From contig JAFXYF010000008.1 of NCBI GenBank assembly GCA_017541885.1, positions 1 to 64,000 of the forward strand: 64,000 nt of DNA, read 5' to 3'. This stretch comes from Bacilli bacterium. Its GTDB lineage: Bacteria > Bacillota_I > Bacilli_A > RF39 > UBA660. This document shows positions 6,613 through 16,002 of the stretch, piece by piece. The notes under the pieces are model-generated. The model was not told where the DNA came from, did not search any database, and saw nothing but the letters and a program-made list of their open reading frames with translations. Position 1 is the stretch's first letter. Each line of letters starts with the position of its first letter. A program made the translations under genes and the position numbers.

Positions 6613-6629
6613 TTAAGTGGGTGATAGTT

Positions 6630-8114
6630 ATGTCGATGATTAAGGTATCTAATTTAACATTTAATTATGACACTCATCCTGATAGTATTTTTGAAAATGT
6701 TTCTTTTATAATTGATACTGATTGGAAATTAGGGTTTATTGGCAGAAACGGAAAAGGAAAGACTACTTTTTTAAATTTATTATTAGGTAAGTATGAATAT
6801 AGTGGTCAAATTGTTTCTGATGTAACATTTGATTATTTTCCTTTTGAAGTAAAAAATAATAATTTAACTCCATATGAAATTGCAGAAGAATACTGTAATT
6901 CTTATGAAGCTTGGAAATTTGAAAGAGAAATATCTTTGCTTAATATGGATTTAGATAGATTAACTAAACCTTTTAATATATTAAGTAAAGGTGAACAAAC
7001 TAAGATATTACTTGCGATATTATTCTTAAAAGAAAATAATTTCTTATTAATTGATGAACCTACTAATCACTTAGATATTGAGGCTAGACATGCTGTTGCA
7101 GCTTATTTAAATAAGAAGAAAGGTTTTATATTAGTTTCGCATGATAGAACTTTTATTGATAGTTGTGTTGATCATATTTTATCTATAAATAGAGCAGATA
7201 TTAAAATTTATAAAGGCAATTTCTCATCATGGTATGAAAATAAAAATAGACAAGATAATTTTGAACTTAGTGAAAATGAAAAATTAAAGAAAGATATTAC
7301 GAGACTTGAAGAGTCTGCTAAAAGAACTGCCGAATGGTCTGATAAAGTAGAAGCATCTAAATATCATGCTCCTAGAGATATATTATTAGATACAGGTAGA
7401 ATTGGTCATAAAGCAGCTAAAATGATGAAGAGAAGTATTGTTGCACAAAATAGAATAGAAAAAGCAATAGAAGAGAAAAGTAAGTTACTTAAGAATATAG
7501 AAGAAGTAGAAGATTTAAAGATTAGTCCTTTAAAAAATAGAGGGGGACATTTAATTGAAGCACATAATCTAAATATTAAATATGGTGATAATGTTGTAGC
7601 ATCTAAGATTAATTTTTATTTAGAAGATGGAGATAGACTACATTTAAAAGGAAAGAATGGTAGTGGTAAGTCTAGTTTAATTAAATTAATATTAGGAGAT
7701 AATATTTCTTATGATGGAGATTTATTTATTCAAGGTGGTTTAAAAATATCTTATGTATCACAAGATACATCTCACCTTAAAGGAACATTAAATGATTATG
7801 CTAGAGATAATGGAATTGACCAAACTCTATTTAAAACTGTTCTTAGAAAAATGGACTTTGAAAGAGAACAATTTGAAAAAACTATAGATAGTTATAGTGA
7901 GGGTCAAAAGAAGAAAGTATTAATCGCAAGAAGTGTTTGTGAACAAGCAAATATTTATATTTGGGATGAACCATTAAATTATATTGATGTATTTAGTAGA
8001 ATGCAGATAGAAGATTTAATTCTTAAATTTAATCTAACAATGATATTTGTAGAACATGATGAGACATTCTCAAATAATATTGCGACAAAAGTATTAGAAA
8101 TAGATAGGAGGTAA
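6630..8114 (+). CDS. ABC-F ATPase of the Lsa/CplR type (putative ribosome protection)
   Basis: The protein has 494 residues and two ABC domains joined by a charged linker, with no TM helices. Walker A motifs are GRNGKGKTT (38-46) and GKNGSGKSS. Signatures are LSKGEQTK and YSEGQKKK. Walker B/D-loops are LLIDEPTNHLD and IYIWDEPLNYID. The N-terminus (SMIKVSNLTFNY, then DWKLGFIGRNGKGKTTFLNLLLG) and length fit the Lsa/CplR/Vga branch, which displaces lincosamide, pleuromutilin and streptogramin A drugs from the ribosome. The resistance phenotype is inference. The start follows GTGGGTGAT; no long attenuator leader is present, unlike some relatives. Confidence 0.88.
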   Translation: MSMIKVSNLTFNYDTHPDSIFENVSFIIDTDWKLGFIGRNGKGKTTFLNLLLGKYEYSGQIVSDVTFDYFPFEVKNNNLTPYEIAEEYCNSYEAWKFEREISLLNMDLDRLTKPFNILSKGEQTKILLAILFLKENNFLLIDEPTNHLDIEARHAVAAYLNKKKGFILVSHDRTFIDSCVDHILSINRADIKIYKGNFSSWYENKNRQDNFELSENEKLKKDITRLEESAKRTAEWSDKVEASKYHAPRDILLDTGRIGHKAAKMMKRSIVAQNRIEKAIEEKSKLLKNIEEVEDLKISPLKNRGGHLIEAHNLNIKYGDNVVASKINFYLEDGDRLHLKGKNGSGKSSLIKLILGDNISYDGDLFIQGGLKISYVSQDTSHLKGTLNDYARDNGIDQTLFKTVLRKMDFEREQFEKTIDSYSEGQKKKVLIARSVCEQANIYIWDEPLNYIDVFSRMQIEDLILKFNLTMIFVEHDETFSNNIATKVLEIDRR

Positions 8115-8118
8115 TATT

Positions 8119-9066
8119 ATGACTAATTTTAGATTTGTCAGTATTAGTGATTTAGTTACAGACATATATTATGACAAGAATTTAAAATTAATTGGCGCTG
8201 ATGGAGGAATAACTGCCCATAATATTATTTGTAATTTAGAGTATTTTGGATTTAAGACATTTGCTTTTGGAGTTTGTGGTAATGATCCATTAGGGAAAAT
8301 ATCAATTAATAGTTTAAAAGATTGTAATGTAGATAATGATATATTAATTAGGAATGATATAAAAACAAAAGCATTTCATATTAGAAGAGTAATTGATAAT
8401 AATAAATATGCTTATAGATCAGTTAAAAGATGTCCTTTTTGCGATACTAAGTTTTGGTATGAAGGAAGTTTCATAGATCCAGAATATATTTTAAAGAAAA
8501 TTAAAAAAGATGATATTTTAGTATTTGATAATTTAAATGATAAGAATCAGTTTATTATTGATAATTCTAGTAATCTTAAATTAATTGATTTAGGTATATC
8601 TAAAGAATTTGATGAATTAAGTAAAGATGAAATTATAAAGAAAATTAGTAATAAATTTGAAATAGTTAATTTAAATGAAAGAGTAGAGAAATACCTAATA
8701 GAAAAATTAAATTGTACTGATTCAATTGGCTTATCAAAAATATTTAATTCTAAATTATTACTTATTACTAGAGGTAAAAGAGGAAATGAATTTGTTTTTA
8801 ATAATAAAAAATATATATTTCCACTAAAAGAAGTAATAGAAGAAGTAGATGATAGTGGTGCAGGAGATGCATTTTTCTCTACTATTATTAAGAATTGGGC
8901 AAACAATAACTTTGAAATAAAAGAAGAATATTTTGAAGAATGGTTTAATGATACATCTATTCTTATTAAGAAAATATTAAGATTAGTTGGATCTAGAAGA
9001 CATATTAAAAAACTATATAAAATAACCTACAAAGATATATGTAATTGTAGTTTAAAAAAAGGCTAG
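8119..9066 (+). CDS. PfkB-family carbohydrate kinase-like protein
   Basis: The protein has 315 residues. The glycine-rich N-terminal element is GADGGITAHNIICNLEYFGF, and the C-terminal PfkB signature DDSGAGDAFFST carries the catalytic Asp. An unusual insertion, RCPFCDTKFWYEG, with a CxxC may bind metal. It is expected to phosphorylate a sugar or nucleoside with ATP; the substrate is unknown. GGAGGT precedes the ATG by 7 nt and the upstream gene ends 4 nt before it, so it is cotranscribed with the ABC-F gene. The stop codon lies inside the terminator stem. Confidence 0.82.
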   Translation: MTNFRFVSISDLVTDIYYDKNLKLIGADGGITAHNIICNLEYFGFKTFAFGVCGNDPLGKISINSLKDCNVDNDILIRNDIKTKAFHIRRVIDNNKYAYRSVKRCPFCDTKFWYEGSFIDPEYILKKIKKDDILVFDNLNDKNQFIIDNSSNLKLIDLGISKEFDELSKDEIIKKISNKFEIVNLNERVEKYLIEKLNCTDSIGLSKIFNSKLLLITRGKRGNEFVFNNKKYIFPLKEVIEEVDDSGAGDAFFSTIIKNWANNNFEIKEEYFEEWFNDTSILIKKILRLVGSRRHIKKLYKITYKDICNCSLKKG

Positions 9067-9084
9067 TAATTCTAGTCTTTTTTA
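9057..9084 (+). terminator. Rho-independent terminator (GACTAG type, one wobble pair)
   Basis: AAGGCTAG-TAATT-CTAGTCTT plus T run. The preceding stop codon is part of the 5' arm. Confidence 0.85.
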
Positions 9085-9139: not shown

Positions 9140-10513
9140 ATGGAACGAGATTATGTTTATTATGAATATACAAACAGTTTATGTAATGAGTGTTTAAAGG
9201 TAATACCAGCAAAAATTATATTTAAGAATAATAAAGTTTATTTATTAAAACATTGTATGGAGCATGGAGAACAATTAGAATTATTAGAGCACGATATTGA
9301 ATACTTTAAAAACAAACGTAAATATGATAAAGCTGGTAATATAGCTGTTACTCAAACAGAAGTAAAGAAAGGTTGTCCATATGATTGTGGCTTATGTCCT
9401 AATCATGATCAACATAGTTGTATTAATTTAATAGAAGTTACAAATAAATGTAATATGTGTTGTAATACTTGTTACGCAAATAGCGGTAAAGGAGAAGATC
9501 TTCCTTTAAAAAAGATTAAAGAGATGATTGACTTTGGAGCTAAATGTGAAGGCGGTAAAGGAGAAGTATTACAAGTAAGTGGAGGAGAGCCAACACTTCA
9601 TAAAGATATTATTGAAATACTTAAATATGCTAGAGAAAAATATCAATATGTAATGCTTAATACAAACGGTATTAGAATTGCAGAAGATTTAGATTTTGTA
9701 AAAGAATTAAGTGAATTTAAAGGTCGTTTTGAAATATATTTACAATTTGATTCATTTAATGATGATGTCTATGAAAAAATTAGAGGAAGAAAACTTGTAG
9801 ATATAAAGAAGAAAGCTATTGAGAACTTAAATAAATATAATATTCCAATTACTTTAGTAATGACAATTGAAAGAGATTTAAACGATAAAGAATTAGGTAA
9901 GATTATTGCATATGGACTTGATACTGGATGTATTAGAGGAGTTAATATTCAACCAGTAGCATATTTTGGTAGAAAAAATGGTAATAATGATAGAAGTAAT
10001 AGAGTTACATTAACTAATGTAATTGAGTTAATAGAAGAACAAACAAAGAAAATGATAATTAAAGATGATTTTGTACCATTGCCTTGTAATGTAGAAAGAG
10101 TATCATTAACTTATTTATATAATACCAAAGATGGTTTTATTCCAATTACTAGAATGGATAATATTAAAAAGTATTTACCTTATGTAAATAATACATTTAC
10201 TTTTAAAATAGAAGATGCTTTAACAAGTGGTAAAGATATTATTTTTGGTTGTTGCTGCAACCCATTAAGTTTCTTAAAAGATTTTAAAAAATATGTTCCT
10301 AAAGGATTTATGAAATGGGATATTGAAAAACGTAGTGAATTTGTAAGTAACAATACTTTTAGAATTAGTATTACATCATTTATAGATAGATATAATTTTG
10401 ATATTAAATCTATGCAAAAAGAATGTGCTCATATAATTACTACTGATCTTAAGAGAATTCCATTTTCTTCATATAACATGATTTATAGGAGTAAGTATGA
10501 TTCTAGAAAATAG
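9140..10513 (+). CDS. Tes/MJ0619-type radical SAM protein (putative lipid-modifying)
   Basis: The protein has 457 residues. An N-terminal rubredoxin-like half-site (C15, C18; H38, C39, H42, in SLCNECLKVIPAKI and KHCMEHGE) precedes a second Cys/His block (GCPYDCGLCPNHDQHSC: C79, C83, C86, H89, C94). The radical SAM CX3CX2C motif is C104/C108/C111 (TNKCNMCCNTCYA), followed by VSGGEPTLH. Late FGCCCN and KECAH supply more ligands. This layout matches the family containing archaeal tetraether synthase Tes and MJ0619 (established knowledge). The bacterial substrate is unknown; membrane-protein partners suggest a lipid (inference). AGGAGAT precedes the ATG. Confidence 0.85.
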   Translation: MERDYVYYEYTNSLCNECLKVIPAKIIFKNNKVYLLKHCMEHGEQLELLEHDIEYFKNKRKYDKAGNIAVTQTEVKKGCPYDCGLCPNHDQHSCINLIEVTNKCNMCCNTCYANSGKGEDLPLKKIKEMIDFGAKCEGGKGEVLQVSGGEPTLHKDIIEILKYAREKYQYVMLNTNGIRIAEDLDFVKELSEFKGRFEIYLQFDSFNDDVYEKIRGRKLVDIKKKAIENLNKYNIPITLVMTIERDLNDKELGKIIAYGLDTGCIRGVNIQPVAYFGRKNGNNDRSNRVTLTNVIELIEEQTKKMIIKDDFVPLPCNVERVSLTYLYNTKDGFIPITRMDNIKKYLPYVNNTFTFKIEDALTSGKDIIFGCCCNPLSFLKDFKKYVPKGFMKWDIEKRSEFVSNNTFRISITSFIDRYNFDIKSMQKECAHIITTDLKRIPFSSYNMIYRSKYDSRK

Positions 10514-11141
10514 CATAAAAGAAATGATTAATAAAGTAGTAAGTACTATTGGTATAGAAGAAACAATAATTAACTATATTATTATTTTAGGTATCTTGTT
10601 AATTTATCTATATGTTCTTTATAATTTTATAAGTGCTAGATTTAGAAAAAATAAAAAGAAAAAAGAAGTTAAATCTATAGTTGAAACTGCCAGTATGAGT
10701 GCATTCTTCGCAGTTATATGGCTTGTAGTATTCACAAGAACAGGAGTAATTAATTTTCACAATACTTATCTTAATATCTTTTTTCTAATTATATATGTTA
10801 TCGGTATAGCTACAAACCTATTAGGACGTTTTTATTTAGGTAAGAACTGGGGTAATAATGTAGTTATATATGAAGATCATACTTTTGTACATAATGGAGT
10901 ATATAAGATAGTTAGGCATCCTTTATATGCATCAATTATTTGGATGATATACTCAATAAGTTTTTTAAAGAGTAATTATTTAGTATTTATATTAAATACT
11001 ATTATCTTTATTCCATTTATGTATTATAGAGCTAAACAAGAAGAAAAAGAATTAATTAAAGTATTTAAAGAATATAATGATTATATTAAAAATACAGGAA
11101 TGTTTTTTCCAAAAATAAAAGTTAATAGAAAGGAAAAATAA
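10497..11141 (+). CDS. Isoprenylcysteine carboxyl methyltransferase (ICMT/PEMT)-like membrane protein
   Basis: The protein has 214 residues with about five TM helices. The C-terminal SAM-binding region carries the family motif HNGVYKIVRHPLYAS and, later, RAKQEEKELIKVFKEYNDY. Families with this fold methylate thiols, carboxylates or amine headgroups at the membrane surface. The gene starts within the last 17 nt of the radical SAM gene, after TAGGAGTAAGT, so the two are translationally coupled. Its role, probably methylation or modification of the same lipid-like substrate, is inference. A second ICMT-like gene is at 45449. Confidence 0.8.
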   Translation: MILENSIKEMINKVVSTIGIEETIINYIIILGILLIYLYVLYNFISARFRKNKKKKEVKSIVETASMSAFFAVIWLVVFTRTGVINFHNTYLNIFFLIIYVIGIATNLLGRFYLGKNWGNNVVIYEDHTFVHNGVYKIVRHPLYASIIWMIYSISFLKSNYLVFILNTIIFIPFMYYRAKQEEKELIKVFKEYNDYIKNTGMFFPKIKVNRKEK

Positions 11142-11142
11142 T

Positions 11143-11625
11143 ATGACTAAATATCAAATGGCTACTGTGCCAAAAAAAGGATTTGCTTTTTGTAGATATA
11201 CTATTGCATTACTATTATGGATTACTGTAATAGCATTATTCTTTAATATAAAATGGGTAATATTTATACCATTTGCAATAATGTTATTATCTGGAATTCT
11301 AACCGTTAAAAGAGCCCCTTTAATTATGCTTTATAAATTATTATTTGACAGAGATGGAAAAGCAGAAACAGATGTATTAAATGTAAGTAGTATCAGATTT
11401 TCTCACTATGTAGGATCATCTTTTGCATTAATAGCAATATTATTCTTATATGTATTTAAGATTGATATAGTTGCTTATATTTTCTTAGGTATTCTAACTA
11501 TATTACAAACTATTGCAGCTTTAGGATATTGTTCAGCACAGAAATTATATGAATGTTTAGTATTAGGTAAGAATTGTTGCAACTTAGGAAGAAAGATTAG
11601 AGGAGGAAGTTGTAATGTTAGATAA
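11143..11625 (+). CDS. DUF4395-like membrane protein with C-terminal cysteines
   Basis: The protein has 160 residues with about four TM helices. The C-terminal GYCSAQKLYECL matches the ending fC-x-x-CK-x-Y seen in DUF4395 proteins (one Cys replaced by Ala here), followed by further cysteines (CC and a terminal SCNVR). A redox or sulfur-related role has been guessed for the family, but none is established. The ATG lies 1 nt after the stop of the ICMT-like gene and its end overlaps the next gene by 11 nt, so it is an integral operon member. Confidence 0.6.
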   Translation: MTKYQMATVPKKGFAFCRYTIALLLWITVIALFFNIKWVIFIPFAIMLLSGILTVKRAPLIMLYKLLFDRDGKAETDVLNVSSIRFSHYVGSSFALIAILFLYVFKIDIVAYIFLGILTILQTIAALGYCSAQKLYECLVLGKNCCNLGRKIRGGSCNVR

Positions 11626-12403
11626 TCATTTTGTTCCAGATGGTTATGGTATTATTCCTTATATTACATTATTTGGAAAAGAAGTATCTACTTATTCAAT
11701 ATTTGTTTTATTAGGATTAATAATTGGAATACTATGGTTTATGCTTACAGTATCCTTAAAAGATAAAGTAAGAGGAGATAAAGCTTATATAATTGTTTTA
11801 TCCGCATTAATATTTGGAATTATTGGATCTAAACTATTAGTAGTAATAGAAAATATTGATGTTTTAATAAAAGATATAAGTCAGATTAGAGTATTTCTTT
11901 TTACTGGTAAATCTATAGTAGGTGGATTAATAGGAGGATTCATTGGAGTTAAATTAGCAAAAAAACTGTTAAAACTAGAAAATATCAGAACTGGTAATAG
12001 AATTGCTCCTGCTATAGCATTAGGTATGGGGATTGGAAGAATTGGTTGTTTTTTAACAGGTTGTTGTTTTGGTATAAGAACATCTCTTCCTATTGGAGTA
12101 GATTTTGGAGATGGAGTATCAAGAATTCCTACACAACTTATTGAAATGATATTTTGTTTTATATTATTTATATATTTATTCTATAAACAAAGAAAAAATA
12201 ATAAATTAATTCCAGGAATTCTTTTCAATGAATTAGTACTTTATTATTTTACATTTAGATTTTTAATTGAATTTATTCGAGATACACAAAAGAATATCTT
12301 ATTCTTGAGTATTTATCAAATAATATCAATTATCGGAATAGTATATATTTTAATAAGAATAAGAAAGGAGAAAAAATTATGGATGAAAAAACAAATGAGT
12401 TAA
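11615..12403 (+). CDS. Prolipoprotein diacylglyceryl transferase (Lgt)-like paralog with altered active site
   Basis: The protein has 262 residues and about seven TM helices. The Lgt topology and landmarks are present: GGLIGGF (103-109), GRIGCFLTGCCFG (141-153), IPTQLIE and RFLIEFIRD (R215, E219). Canonical Lgt has HGG, GRxGNFxNxE and HPSQLYE; here the catalytic His positions and the Asn/Glu positions are replaced, partly by Cys (C145, C150, C151). It is thus probably not the housekeeping lipoprotein enzyme but a paralog acting on another lipid or acceptor. GGAGGAAG precedes the ATG. It overlaps both neighbours. Confidence 0.78.
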   Translation: MLDNHFVPDGYGIIPYITLFGKEVSTYSIFVLLGLIIGILWFMLTVSLKDKVRGDKAYIIVLSALIFGIIGSKLLVVIENIDVLIKDISQIRVFLFTGKSIVGGLIGGFIGVKLAKKLLKLENIRTGNRIAPAIALGMGIGRIGCFLTGCCFGIRTSLPIGVDFGDGVSRIPTQLIEMIFCFILFIYLFYKQRKNNKLIPGILFNELVLYYFTFRFLIEFIRDTQKNILFLSIYQIISIIGIVYILIRIRKEKKLWMKKQMS

Positions 12404-12828
12404 ATACTAATAATGTGTATTGTGGTAATTGTGGGACATTAAACACGTCTGACAATAACTTTTGTCATAATTGTGGTACAACTATTGTACCTCCTCTTCA
12501 AGAACCTCAAATACAAGTTCCTGTAGAAACTTCACCTCAAAATAATATAACACCAGCACCTAAACCTGAAGATACAGACACTGCAGACCAAAAAGTTTTA
12601 TATATTACATTAGGAATAGTTGGTGGAATTTTATCTCTAGTAATTAGTTACTTTTTCCCACCTATATTAATTGCTGCAATAGCTGGTGCCATTACATCAT
12701 TGTTCTTTAAAAGATTTAGAGCCTTTGGTATAACAGTTTTAGCCTCAATTGGAATACTAGCTATAACAGCTGTTGTATTTGTAATTATAATGTTTGGTGC
12801 TTGTATTGCAGCCTTTGGATCAATGTAA
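12379..12828 (+). CDS. Zinc-ribbon membrane protein
   Basis: The protein has 149 residues. An N-terminal zinc ribbon (YCGNCGTLNTSDNNFCHNCG, four Cys) is followed by a Pro/Gln-rich linker and two to three hydrophobic helices with a Gly-rich break (about 75-145). It starts 25 nt inside the Lgt-like gene, after AAAGGAG, and is the last gene of the radical SAM operon. The topology suggests a cytoplasmic zinc domain tethered to the membrane; scaffold or regulator is a guess. Confidence 0.75.
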   Translation: MDEKTNELNTNNVYCGNCGTLNTSDNNFCHNCGTTIVPPLQEPQIQVPVETSPQNNITPAPKPEDTDTADQKVLYITLGIVGGILSLVISYFFPPILIAAIAGAITSLFFKRFRAFGITVLASIGILAITAVVFVIIMFGACIAAFGSM

Positions 12829-12855: not shown

Positions 12856-12884
12856 AAAAACTAGTGAAAACTAGTCTTTTTATT
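12856..12884 (+). terminator. Terminator of the radical SAM operon
   Basis: ACTAGT-GAAA-ACTAGT hairpin followed by CTTTTTATTT. The extra C interrupts the stem-to-T-run junction slightly. Confidence 0.75.
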
Positions 12885-12970: not shown

Positions 12971-15022
12971 ATGAAGAATTATGAGTTATCACAATTAACA
13001 TTTGGAACACTATTCAATCATTTCTATGAAAGTCATGATACTGTTTTAGTGACCGAAAATGGTGTTCTAATTGGCGCGATAACTTATAATTCTTTTGTTT
13101 CTTCTGAGGATATTTCTGATATAATTAGAAAAGCTATTGTAATAGATTCTGAAGATGAAATGGAAATTGGTGATCTAGTTAATGTTTACATATTAAGAGA
13201 TGGAAATAGTTTTAGAGAAGTAAGTAAAAAAGTAGATCCAAGATATGCATTTACAATAGATAGATTTAAAGATTTATATAATGATAATGATATAATTGCT
13301 AATTACGTTAAGTCTCTTAACTTAGATACTATTTTTGTAATTGGTGATAATAGAAATTATATTTATTCTTTTTTAAATATGTATGGTCTAAAAGCAAATA
13401 TAATGAATGTAGATGAAAAGTATTTACCATATTTATTAAATAGTAATTTTCCTAATTCAATAGTAATAGATACTTCTGGATTTAATACAGAGTTATTACA
13501 AAAATTAGGTAGAAGACAAAAACTAGAACAAAGAATAATAGATTTAAAAGAATTATCAAAATATGCAGAAATATATAACTTTGTAAATGTAACATCAAAA
13601 AATGATTCAGTAAAAAGTATGGTATTTCAATTCCCAGATATTCCTGAACTTACAAATCTAACAGAAGAAGAAAAACAAAGAATTATATTTGATCATTATT
13701 ATAAGTATTATTTTGATACTTATCTAAAAGAAGGACGCTTTGAAGACTTATTAAAAAGTGTCTTTAAAGAACATTTTTCAAGAGAGTTCATTGAGTCTAG
13801 ATATACAATGCCTAAAGTATATAATAGAGGTGGAGTATTATTCTTAGAAGACTCTAATAATCCATTATGTTTAAGTGTAAATGGTATGAGAGTTACAACA
13901 GATCAAGATAGAGATTTTGCAGCTAACATTAATATGTTTGGAGCATGTGTTGTATTTAGTGCTTTAGCAGATGATCAACATACTCTTCCAAGTTATTTAC
14001 AAAGACTTCTTAATAGTAATGATTATCCATATCAAGTAAATAACTATGGAGCAAGAGCAATCGATTTCTCAGAAAATCTAAGAACTTCAAGAAGTATTAA
14101 CCTACATAGAAATGATGTTAATGCTTTTGTAGTAATGGGTGATGAAGCAAGAATATTAAAACAAATGGGTTATGATGAAATATATTCATTAACTCCAGTA
14201 TTTAATAGTCCTAGATTAAAAGACTACTTTGTAGATGAACCAGCTCACTGTAATCATGAAGCAAATAAATATATGTCTGCAGGAATATATCTGGAATTAG
14301 AAAGAATCTTAGATAAAGAATTAACTAAAGAAGAATGTCCATTAATACAAGTCCCTAAGACAAAAGACATATTTAGTGATAATAAATATTTAATTGAATA
14401 TTTAAGAACACTAGAGCCATATAGAGGCTTTGATGGAGTAACAGGAGCAGTTGTAATGAACTGTAATCCATTTACATATGGTCACTATAATTTAGTTAAA
14501 TATGCTAGTGAACATGTAGATAGATTAATGGTATTTGTAGTAGAAGAAGATAAATCATATTTTAAATTTAAAGATAGATTTCAAATGGTAAAAGAAGGAT
14601 GCAAAGCATTTCCTAATGCCATAGTAGTACCTAGCGGTAATTTACTCGCATCAGCACTTTTATTTCCAGAATACTTCGATAAAGAAGATAATCCAGATGT
14701 AATGGTAGATGCATCAAAAGATATCGCAGTATTTTCACAATATATTGCACCATTCTTAGGCATAACTAAAAGATTTGTTGGAGAAGAAAACTTTGATAAA
14801 GTAACTCATGCCTATAATATAAGTTTAAAAGAAACTCTTCCATTATATGGAATAGAAGTAATAGAAATACCTAGATTCTTAGATAGAGAAGGTCATGAAA
14901 TAAGTGCTAAAGTAGTAAGAAGAAACTTTGAAGACGAAAAATGGACTGAATTAGATAGTCAAATACCAGAGTCAACAGTAAAAGTATTAAAATTAATAAA
15001 AGATAGGGGAGAAAGAGAATGA
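12971..15022 (+). CDS. Multidomain protein with SGNH-like region and citrate-lyase-ligase-type nucleotidyltransferase domain
   Basis: The protein has 683 residues from ATG 12971 (GGA-type ribosome-binding site, weak; an upstream TTG at 12884 would overlap the promoter). The C-terminal about 190 residues carry a cytidylyltransferase fold: VMNCNPFTYGH (496-505, T/HxGH motif) and, near the end, EISAKVVRRNF, equivalent to the ISSTxVR motif. It resembles the CitC C-terminal domain. The middle part (SVNGMRVTTDQDRDFAANI, later RSINLHRNDVNAFVVMGDE) resembles SGNH/GDSL-like modules in polysaccharide genes. No citDEF genes are present. Activation of a phospho-polyol by a nucleotide is inferred from the neighbours. 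Confidence 0.7.
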   Translation: MKNYELSQLTFGTLFNHFYESHDTVLVTENGVLIGAITYNSFVSSEDISDIIRKAIVIDSEDEMEIGDLVNVYILRDGNSFREVSKKVDPRYAFTIDRFKDLYNDNDIIANYVKSLNLDTIFVIGDNRNYIYSFLNMYGLKANIMNVDEKYLPYLLNSNFPNSIVIDTSGFNTELLQKLGRRQKLEQRIIDLKELSKYAEIYNFVNVTSKNDSVKSMVFQFPDIPELTNLTEEEKQRIIFDHYYKYYFDTYLKEGRFEDLLKSVFKEHFSREFIESRYTMPKVYNRGGVLFLEDSNNPLCLSVNGMRVTTDQDRDFAANINMFGACVVFSALADDQHTLPSYLQRLLNSNDYPYQVNNYGARAIDFSENLRTSRSINLHRNDVNAFVVMGDEARILKQMGYDEIYSLTPVFNSPRLKDYFVDEPAHCNHEANKYMSAGIYLELERILDKELTKEECPLIQVPKTKDIFSDNKYLIEYLRTLEPYRGFDGVTGAVVMNCNPFTYGHYNLVKYASEHVDRLMVFVVEEDKSYFKFKDRFQMVKEGCKAFPNAIVVPSGNLLASALLFPEYFDKEDNPDVMVDASKDIAVFSQYIAPFLGITKRFVGEENFDKVTHAYNISLKETLPLYGIEVIEIPRFLDREGHEISAKVVRRNFEDEKWTELDSQIPESTVKVLKLIKDRGERE

Positions 15023-16002
15023 AATTTAAAGGGGAAGTAATAGAATGCAATTATATAGAATATTTAAATAATCTTAATGGAAAAGTATTATTTATTTATT
15101 CTCCTACATCAAAAGAAATTAATAACTTAGAATTAAATAATAATTATATTATCTTTAATACTAAAGAATTAACTCAAAATGTAGATGAATTAGAAAATAG
15201 AATAAAAGAATTAGGAAAATTCGATAAAGTAGTTGCTTTTGGAGGAGGAACTGCTATAGATCAAGCTAAATTCTTTGGATCTAGATTAAATAAAAAAGTA
15301 ATAGTAATTCCAACTATGATTTCAACTAATGCTTATGCAACAGATAAAGTAGCATTATATGAGAATAATAAGAAAGTAACATTACTCGCAAAAGATCCAG
15401 ATATTATATTATTAGATAAAGAAATATTAAAAAGATCTACTCTAAAAAATGTCTATGGACTAGTTGATGTATTATCAATTTATACTGCTTTAAATGATTG
15501 GGATCTAGCAATCGAATATAATAATGAAGATATATCTATTGAGTATTCTTATGCACATAAATTATTATTAGAAACATTATCATTTATAAATAATCATACC
15601 TATGAAGAAATAATAAATGATACTCATAAAATATTTGAACTAGTTGGAAAAGCAGGAATTATTACTGATATTTATGGAAGTGGTAAACCAGAAAGTGGTT
15701 CAGAACATTTATTTGCTAAAGAATTAGAAGCAATTAAAAGAGTTCCTCATGCCATATCAGTATCTAATGGTATACTTCTAATGTCTCTACTACAAAACAA
15801 GTTCTCAGAAGAAGTATTAAGTGCTATAAGAAAGTTAAGAGTATTTGAAGATGAACATCTATATGGAATAAATGAAGAATTATTAAAAGAAGCATTCTTT
15901 AATGTTAAAGTAAGACCTGATCGTTTTACCATAGTAAATCTAGATAATAATGATTTAGAAAAAACATTTAAAGATTTTTGCAATATAAAGAATAGAGGGT
16001 AA
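15019..16002 (+). CDS. Glycerol-1-phosphate dehydrogenase-like (iron-containing alcohol dehydrogenase superfamily)
   Basis: The protein has 327 residues. VVAFGGGTAIDQAKFFG is the NAD(P)-binding GGGs motif, and IPTMISTNAYATDKVAL matches the IPTxxSxDa motif of sn-glycerol-1-phosphate dehydrogenases (EgsA/AraM). The metal ligands are H230 (SGSEHLF) and H244 (RVPHAIS), plus an Asp near GLVDVLS. Known relatives reduce dihydroxyacetone phosphate to sn-glycerol-1-phosphate. The start overlaps the previous gene by 4 nt (GGGGAGAAAG ribosome-binding site). It may supply the polyol-phosphate that the preceding nucleotidyltransferase activates (inference). Confidence 0.78.
   Translation: MKFKGEVIECNYIEYLNNLNGKVLFIYSPTSKEINNLELNNNYIIFNTKELTQNVDELENRIKELGKFDKVVAFGGGTAIDQAKFFGSRLNKKVIVIPTMISTNAYATDKVALYENNKKVTLLAKDPDIILLDKEILKRSTLKNVYGLVDVLSIYTALNDWDLAIEYNNEDISIEYSYAHKLLLETLSFINNHTYEEIINDTHKIFELVGKAGIITDIYGSGKPESGSEHLFAKELEAIKRVPHAISVSNGILLMSLLQNKFSEEVLSAIRKLRVFEDEHLYGINEELLKEAFFNVKVRPDRFTIVNLDNNDLEKTFKDFCNIKNRG

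Follow-up and report, generated by a model that had tools for sequence, protein, structure and literature searches.

Results

A five-gene operon in a Bacilli genome

We analysed a stretch of 64,000 nucleotides (hereafter the window), part of a 230 kb contig (JAFXYF010000008.1) in a 1.45 Mb Bacilli metagenome-assembled genome (MAG). Between positions 9140 and 12828 it carries an operon that brings together a radical S-adenosylmethionine (SAM) enzyme, an ICMT-like methyltransferase, a DUF4395-like protein, a second Lgt and a small membrane protein. The gene set recurs in distant bacteria, its carriers including gut bacteria, environmental lineages that branch deeply and mycobacteria, and we tentatively propose that it is dedicated to the lipidation of proteins. 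The features of the locus are as follows.

9055..9083, + strand: terminator-like hairpin 5' of the operon, separating it from the preceding gene (hairpin scan)
9140..10513, + strand: radical SAM enzyme of the MJ0619/Tes/TrsS superfamily, 457 residues (Pfam/NCBIfam: Radical_SAM, 3.8e-23, and Zn_ribbon_HMPTM, 9.1e-18; alignment to PDB 7tol; clade and motif survey)
10497..11141, + strand: ICMT-like integral membrane methyltransferase, 214 residues, with VRHPLYA and AKQEE motifs (PF04140, 1.4e-13; conserved at other loci)
11143..11625, + strand: DUF4395-like membrane protein, 160 residues (PF14340, 1.3e-12; alignment)
11615..12403, + strand: second Lgt (Lgt-like), 262 residues (PF01790, 2.6e-35; alignments)
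12379..12828, + strand: small membrane protein and proposed substrate, 149 residues, with a variable N-terminal zinc ribbon (6.5e-06) and a C-terminal helix ending ..VFVIIMFGAC-IAAFGSM (Pfam, alignment, motif scan)
12775..12828, + strand: last portion of the fifth protein (end of its C-terminal helix, the G-A-C motif and a tail of seven residues), the part conserved between loci (alignment, motif scan)

Successive open reading frames (ORFs) overlap by 17, -1, 11 and 25 nt. A preliminary description of the window had placed the operon at these coordinates and named the families of the five products, and the ORFs and Pfam matches confirm both. The signals said to bound the operon fared less well. 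The claimed -10 box is not supported: promoter-like sites numbered 30 against 36.7 in shuffled sequences, which is no excess over chance. A terminator (AAAACTAGTGAAAACTAGTCTTTTT, about 12859-12883) can be seen by eye at the end of the operon, at a place where the scan made no call.

The ICMT-like protein scored above the cut-off of PF04140 and below that of the ICMT equivalog NF040696 (76.9 bits; cut-off 160), and its nearest solved structure was 4a2n (8.4e-16).

Conservation in distant lineages

According to the preliminary description, its proposal would fall if the neighbourhood were not conserved in relatives. Read narrowly, conservation is absent: the radical SAM protein was found in 0 of 35 other species of the genus, where the weak matches are other radical SAM proteins, and in 0 of 391 other sampled genomes of the phylum. 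Read broadly, the neighbourhood is conserved by distant carriers. Three other Bacilli MAGs (L035 and L036, the Lapin MAGs, and G703/L065) have the identical five-gene order between different flanks, with radical SAM proteins 78-87% identical to that of the window. The estimated contamination of the host MAG is 7.2%, yet the gene set, which we call the cassette, is present in four independent Bacilli assemblies.

Among 384 Omnitrophota genomes, 13 contain the cassette, and at four of their loci (L067, L068, L088 and L089) the radical SAM, ICMT-like, DUF4395 and Lgt-like genes stand in the same order as in the window. A core of two to four genes recurs in Omnitrophota, Persicobacter, Mycobacterium and Nonomuraea. 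The Lgt-like and radical SAM genes overlap in Persicobacter, and the records of M. avium, M. branderi and Nonomuraea hold the Lgt-like gene, small proteins and the radical SAM gene together. DUF4395 genes occur only in the Bacilli loci and in part of the Omnitrophota loci. The conserved and sporadically distributed gene set consists of a second Lgt, one to three small proteins with a C-terminal G-x-C motif, a radical SAM enzyme from the MJ0619/TrsS superfamily and, usually, an ICMT-like enzyme.

In a tree of the radical SAM proteins, the four Bacilli sequences are nested within the Omnitrophota cassette clade and apart from Tes, with weak support (83/90) at the fork beside the Bacilli. The cassette is sporadic and has probably been transferred; since its composition (25.6% G+C) matches that of its surroundings (26.0%), any such transfer would not be recent. 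Carriage by a phage was rejected because there was no viral contig match, as was carriage by a plasmid, the matches in the plasmid collection being large replicons. In Patescibacteria, 0 of 192 genomes gave a match in a search run without a positive control.

At L038:7998-8630, on a Daviesbacteria contig, an N-terminal fragment of 210 residues from a related radical SAM protein abuts transposase-like genes. At L073:8200-9600 (G751), two in-frame TAG codons interrupt the radical SAM gene, and the neighbouring Lgt-like and G-x-C genes stay open.

Small proteins with a C-terminal G-x-C motif

The fifth gene had been described as encoding a zinc-ribbon membrane protein. The ribbon is present, but it does not define the family: when the small proteins of all cassettes are aligned, their N-terminal part, including the ribbon, is not conserved, and we dropped it as a hallmark since it is missing from L035, L036 and the Omnitrophota. 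The defining feature, found in every phylum with the system, is at the other end. Without exception, the final transmembrane helix terminates in a cysteine that lies 5-17 residues from the C-terminus, and glycine stands two positions before it in 21 of 26 proteins. In all 26, the stretch from -35 to -18 relative to this cysteine contains two or more K/R, and no more than one charged residue falls within the 18 positions that precede it. The positive-inside rule accordingly predicts the cysteine to lie at the outer membrane face. Judged by the order of its elements (K/R, hydrophobic stretch, cysteine), the tail has the predicted plan of a lipoprotein signal peptide with its cysteine, moved to the C-terminus.

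G-x-C proteins are present in 20 of 21 loci, the exception (L081) being a broken contig. There are one to three per locus: three in L066 and L071, and two in L070, L090, L091 and both mycobacteria. Under a strict automatic rule, 16 of 19 loci passed; counted by small ORFs, the rule picked out 20 of the 51 in cassettes (DUF4395 proteins account for two) against 1 of the 150 outside. Relaxed limits added L091 and L042, which are among the 19, and inspection added L173 and L174. Across 390 kb and 387 ORFs of the host genome, the sole protein to pass was the cassette's own fifth gene product; a zinc-ribbon paralogue in the same genome has serine (GIAS) near the FGAC position. None were found at the four loci that have a related radical SAM gene without an Lgt-like gene. 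Compared with the window, the other Bacilli loci show 25-36% identity in the fifth protein and 61-88% in the enzymes; the fifth gene is thus the one that diverges fastest, as expected of substrates.

The G-x-C proteins of L042 and L173 (M. avium and M. branderi plasmids) share a CTGLNPxxY tail after the cysteine, with CTGINPSLY in Nonomuraea, which suggests a lineage-specific recognition tail. In the DUF4395 proteins of eight cassettes (the window, L035, L036, L065, L067, L068, L088 and L089), the final helix likewise closes with G[YF]C[ST]; by this resemblance, DUF4395 itself may be related to the substrates of the system.

The radical SAM enzyme is a relative of Tes

All of the metal motifs previously noted in the radical SAM protein are borne out. 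A rubredoxin-like site is formed by C15, C18, C39 and H42 (CX2CX20CX2H), a second cluster by C79, C83, C86 and possibly H89 (CX3CX2C..H), and the radical SAM cluster proper by C104, C108 and C111 (CX3CX2C). Further cysteines are the extra pair C371-C373 and the retained C429. With scores of 64 bits to PF23545 and 82.9 bits to PF04055, both above cut-off, together with the CX3CX2C motif, the protein belongs to the MJ0619/HMPTM-type superfamily.

The enzyme had been called Tes/MJ0619-type, and its superfamily relation to Tes stands (E 3.5e-76 to PDB 7tol), while identity with Tes does not. It scored 312.9 bits against the Tes model NF045702 (cut-off 450; 549.5 for the Omnitrophota control L074) and 350.2 bits against the TrsS model NF045646 (cut-off 490), the latter being the best full-length NCBIfam model for all tested cassette members. 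The phylogeny proposed earlier as a check, run here against Tes and MJ0619, pairs MJ0619 with L074 (100/99) and places the window protein in a separate clade of 11 rows (100/99). This clade has no known function, so it is not a clade of known non-lipid function, the outcome that would have spoken against a lipid role. At L074:7256-9112, the genuine Tes (549 bits) has an N-terminal rubredoxin-like domain that is apparently duplicated.

In Tes, the solved member of the superfamily, which binds lipid tails, the first substrate radical is held on sulfur of a C-terminal [4Fe-4S] cluster (PMC9433317). The residues of this region (RCC..IPFC and Met439) are not conserved in the window protein, which reads KEC..IPFS and has no equivalent of Met439 or Tyr459; ligand roles other than that of Met439 were taken from the alignment with Tes. 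KCC..PFC is kept in L070 and L071, and as [KQ]CC..PFC in Actinobacteria. It is replaced by KEC..PFS in the window clade and by K[TS]C..PF[DE] in the Persicobacter clade, and both of these clades have acquired a CC or CxC roughly 55 residues before the replaced cysteines (C371-C373 in the window). Judged from its scores below the cut-offs, its separate clade and two replaced cysteines, the window protein is evidently not Tes. By kinship, it probably acts on a hydrophobic substrate, though not via the known Tes route.

A second Lgt accompanies the radical SAM enzyme

The Lgt-like protein exceeded the cut-off of PF01790 (122.3 bits; cut-off 24.9) and fell below that of the lgt equivalog TIGR00544 (74.5; cut-off 118.9). 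Transfer by E. coli Lgt depends on R143 and R239, and H103 is indispensable for its activity (PMC4728403). R142, R215 and E219 of the Lgt-like protein align to R143, R239 and E243 and are kept, whereas H103 is replaced by valine (V102; V or I in cassettes), N146 by cysteine and E151 by cysteine.

An ordinary Lgt is encoded elsewhere in the host genome (G000:C16:36150-36875), and a second, ordinary Lgt is present in every checked Bacilli or Omnitrophota genome with a cassette (G000, G430, G431, G703, G727, G741, G799 and G1186); the true-Tes genome G748 has one Lgt only. When the 384 Omnitrophota genomes are searched with the Lgt-like protein, all but one of the 14 best matches come from precisely those 13 genomes that carry the radical SAM gene; the two genes are gained and lost together.

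Ordinary Omnitrophota Lgts (G748:C50:2441-3148; G799:C1:164793-165500) differ from E. coli Lgt as well: the histidine of HGGL is Y or Q, and they carry GRxGCFxNGCCYG. We had considered the cysteine-rich GC..GCC signature as a sign of an inactive, cassette-only Lgt and dropped the idea, since this signature also occurs in the only Lgt of G748.

Genes beside other cassettes

Omnitrophota cassettes are often preceded by a fusion of major facilitator superfamily, PlsC-type acyltransferase and acyl-activating domains (like LplT-Aas), an alpha/beta hydrolase, a hexapeptide transferase and DUF2339, and others have a separate acyl-activating (acyl-CoA/ACP-synthetase-like) enzyme alongside. These acyl-activation and acyltransferase neighbours support a lipid role. 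At L070:4765-9497 and L071:5354-10106, the radical SAM gene runs gaplessly into genes for an ArsP-like permease, a Se/S carrier, a carbohydrate-kinase-like protein and sulphur transport, which keeps a sulfur or selenium reading alive.

Discussion

A proposed C-terminal route of lipidation

We propose, short of an even chance, that the cassette is a dedicated protein-lipidation system; the association of its genes is observed, and the chemistry that we suggest is inferred. The recurrent C-terminal G-x-C motif points to protein lipidation over a free membrane lipid. In a more specific form, which is possible but doubtful, the cassette would be a new post-translational system distributed over four or more bacterial phyla. 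A dedicated Lgt paralogue and the radical SAM enzyme would equip small membrane proteins with a radical-modified lipid at their C-terminal cysteine, mirroring lipoprotein biogenesis at the opposite end of the protein.

Lgt acts on the lipobox cysteine at the outer membrane face. The small G-x-C proteins would be the substrates here, their last helix running outward (K/R cluster, 18 nearly uncharged residues, cysteine) and presenting the cysteine at that face. The Lgt paralogue would move a glyceryl lipid from a phospholipid to this cysteine, and the radical SAM enzyme might alter the acyl chain of the donor or of the attached lipid via C-H activation. The product or the lipid could be methylated by the ICMT-like enzyme. 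In Omnitrophota, the extra acyl-activation and reacylation genes may supply or repair the lipid. The biological role would be carried by the variable parts of the small proteins.

Several observations weigh against this proposal. The motif is G-x-C, unlike the classical lipobox L-[AS]-[GA]-C; a cysteine in the context [LVI][ASTVI][GAS]C after an N-terminal signal peptide was not found, the G-x-C lying after the last helix at the C-terminus. The enrichment of G-x-C proteins in cassettes (Fisher 7.6e-13) is overstated, since the loci are partly homologous and the counts are not independent. No peptidase is common to the cassette loci. AlphaFold2 models from three-row alignments had mean pLDDT of 44.7 (radical SAM) and 58.2 (Lgt-like), so that no claim is built on structure, and Foldseek with the latter model returned no meaningful match. 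Finally, V or I stands in place of H103, which is essential in E. coli Lgt. This loss does not settle whether the Lgt-like protein is active, because Omnitrophota with a single Lgt are also without the histidine and share the GC..GCCYG signature.

Alternative readings

In a different reading, which we regard as unlikely, the cassette would resemble pathways for ribosomally synthesized and post-translationally modified peptides: the radical SAM enzyme would act directly on the small proteins, on the G-x-C cysteine or close to it, for instance by forming a thioether, and the Lgt-like and ICMT-like enzymes would complete the product or anchor it. Precursor peptides are typically encoded, as here, by one to three short ORFs that evolve rapidly and adjoin a radical SAM gene, and among solved structures the radical SAM protein matches the sactipeptide enzyme SkfB second only to Tes. 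However, Tes itself binds lipid tails, the Pfam search found no SPASM or precursor-recognition domain, and the cysteine is predicted at the outer face, away from a soluble, cytoplasmic radical SAM enzyme.

Another reading takes up the unusual lipid, for example tail-coupled or methylated, that the preliminary description had favoured: the operon would make it as a free membrane lipid, as by Tes or Mss, with the small proteins as accessory subunits. The relation to the Tes superfamily, the acyl remodelling genes that flank Omnitrophota cassettes and the ICMT/PEMT-like enzyme in the operon agree with this. It is set back by the position of the radical SAM protein outside the Tes clade and under the Tes cut-off, by the replacement of the Tes C-terminal cluster-region cysteines in most cassette members, and by the recurrent G-x-C cysteine, which it leaves unexplained; we consider it unlikely too, slightly more so than the peptide reading. 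Of the earlier claim, an undescribed, lipid-related operon is supported by its conserved neighbourhood and the Omnitrophota acyl genes, whereas Tes-type tail coupling is not supported.

Sulfur, selenium or metalloid thiol chemistry, in which cysteines of the small, Lgt-like and DUF4395 proteins would carry S/Se species and lipid would not be the substrate, is improbable: kinship to TrsS is suggestive and the ArsP and Se/S-carrier genes adjoin the radical SAM gene, but such neighbours occur in two loci only, acyl-lipid neighbours are commoner, and the TrsS score lies under its cut-off.

Comparison with known systems

With Tes (GDGT-MAS; MJ0619; NF045702; PDB 7TOL), the cassette radical SAM enzyme shares the superfamily, the N-terminal rubredoxin-like CX2CX20CX2H, a [4Fe-4S] motif with His, and CX3CX2C. 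It differs in its rewired C-terminal cluster region and in its company, as its genome always has an Lgt-like gene, which is nearly always adjoining. Unlike TrsS (NF045646), its gene needs no selenocysteine to keep its frame, and the gene partners differ. Mss is a bacterial enzyme proposed for lipid tail coupling in Bacillota and modelled as Tes-like by its authors (PMC13274423); it is discussed alongside Ger/PlsA, which the operon lacks, and is set apart here by description, not by sequence. The cassette protein shares its family and its equivalents of R143, R239 and E243 with Lgt (PF01790; E. coli 5AZB) and differs as a paralogue beside an ordinary Lgt with H103, N146 and E151 replaced.

The nearest idea is MYXO-CTERM/myxosortase, in which a membrane-proximal cysteine is followed by a helix and an Arg-rich cytoplasmic tail, and Lgt-like lipidation of this C-terminal cysteine has been proposed (PMC11980579). 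In the cassette, the order is reversed, with the helix before the cysteine, and the tail is predicted to point outward; no CPBP protease was seen in the loci, and the enzymes are different. CaaX processing (prenylation, proteolysis and ICMT methylation) likewise combines modification of a C-terminal cysteine with an ICMT-family methyltransferase. The cassette loci, in contrast, share no prenyltransferase or Rce1/Ste24, leave a tail of 5-17 residues after the cysteine, and are bacterial. The gene system falls outside the definitions tested for Tes, for TrsS, for the equivalogs of Lgt and ICMT and for MYXO-CTERM, and its parts are variants of known families. In open-licence papers, we found nothing on this gene set, on the function of DUF4395 or on a C-terminal lipobox system.

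If our proposal is true, a C-terminal route would be added to bacterial protein lipidation, substrates would be assigned to a portion of the many Tes-like radical SAM enzymes of bacteria, and the presence of a second Lgt in some bacteria would be explained. Should the chemistry prove wrong, the tight triad of radical SAM enzyme, second Lgt and G-x-C proteins still makes the function directly testable. Moreover, bacterial 'Tes homologues' are no evidence for membrane-spanning lipids unless their clade and cysteines have been checked.

Adjacent genes in the window

In the next operon (12974-16002, + strand), a gene that joins an unassigned N-terminal part to a C-terminal domain of citrate-lyase-ligase type overlaps a glycerol-1-phosphate-dehydrogenase-like gene (117 bits; cut-off 413). 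The latter was rejected as a member of the pathway, as it is absent near other cassettes. Directly upstream of the five-gene operon (6621-8114, + strand) lies an ABC-F gene of the Lsa ribosomal-protection type, which scored 719.8 bits against NF000167 (cut-off 750) and 473 bits against NF000355, passing the cut-off of 380.

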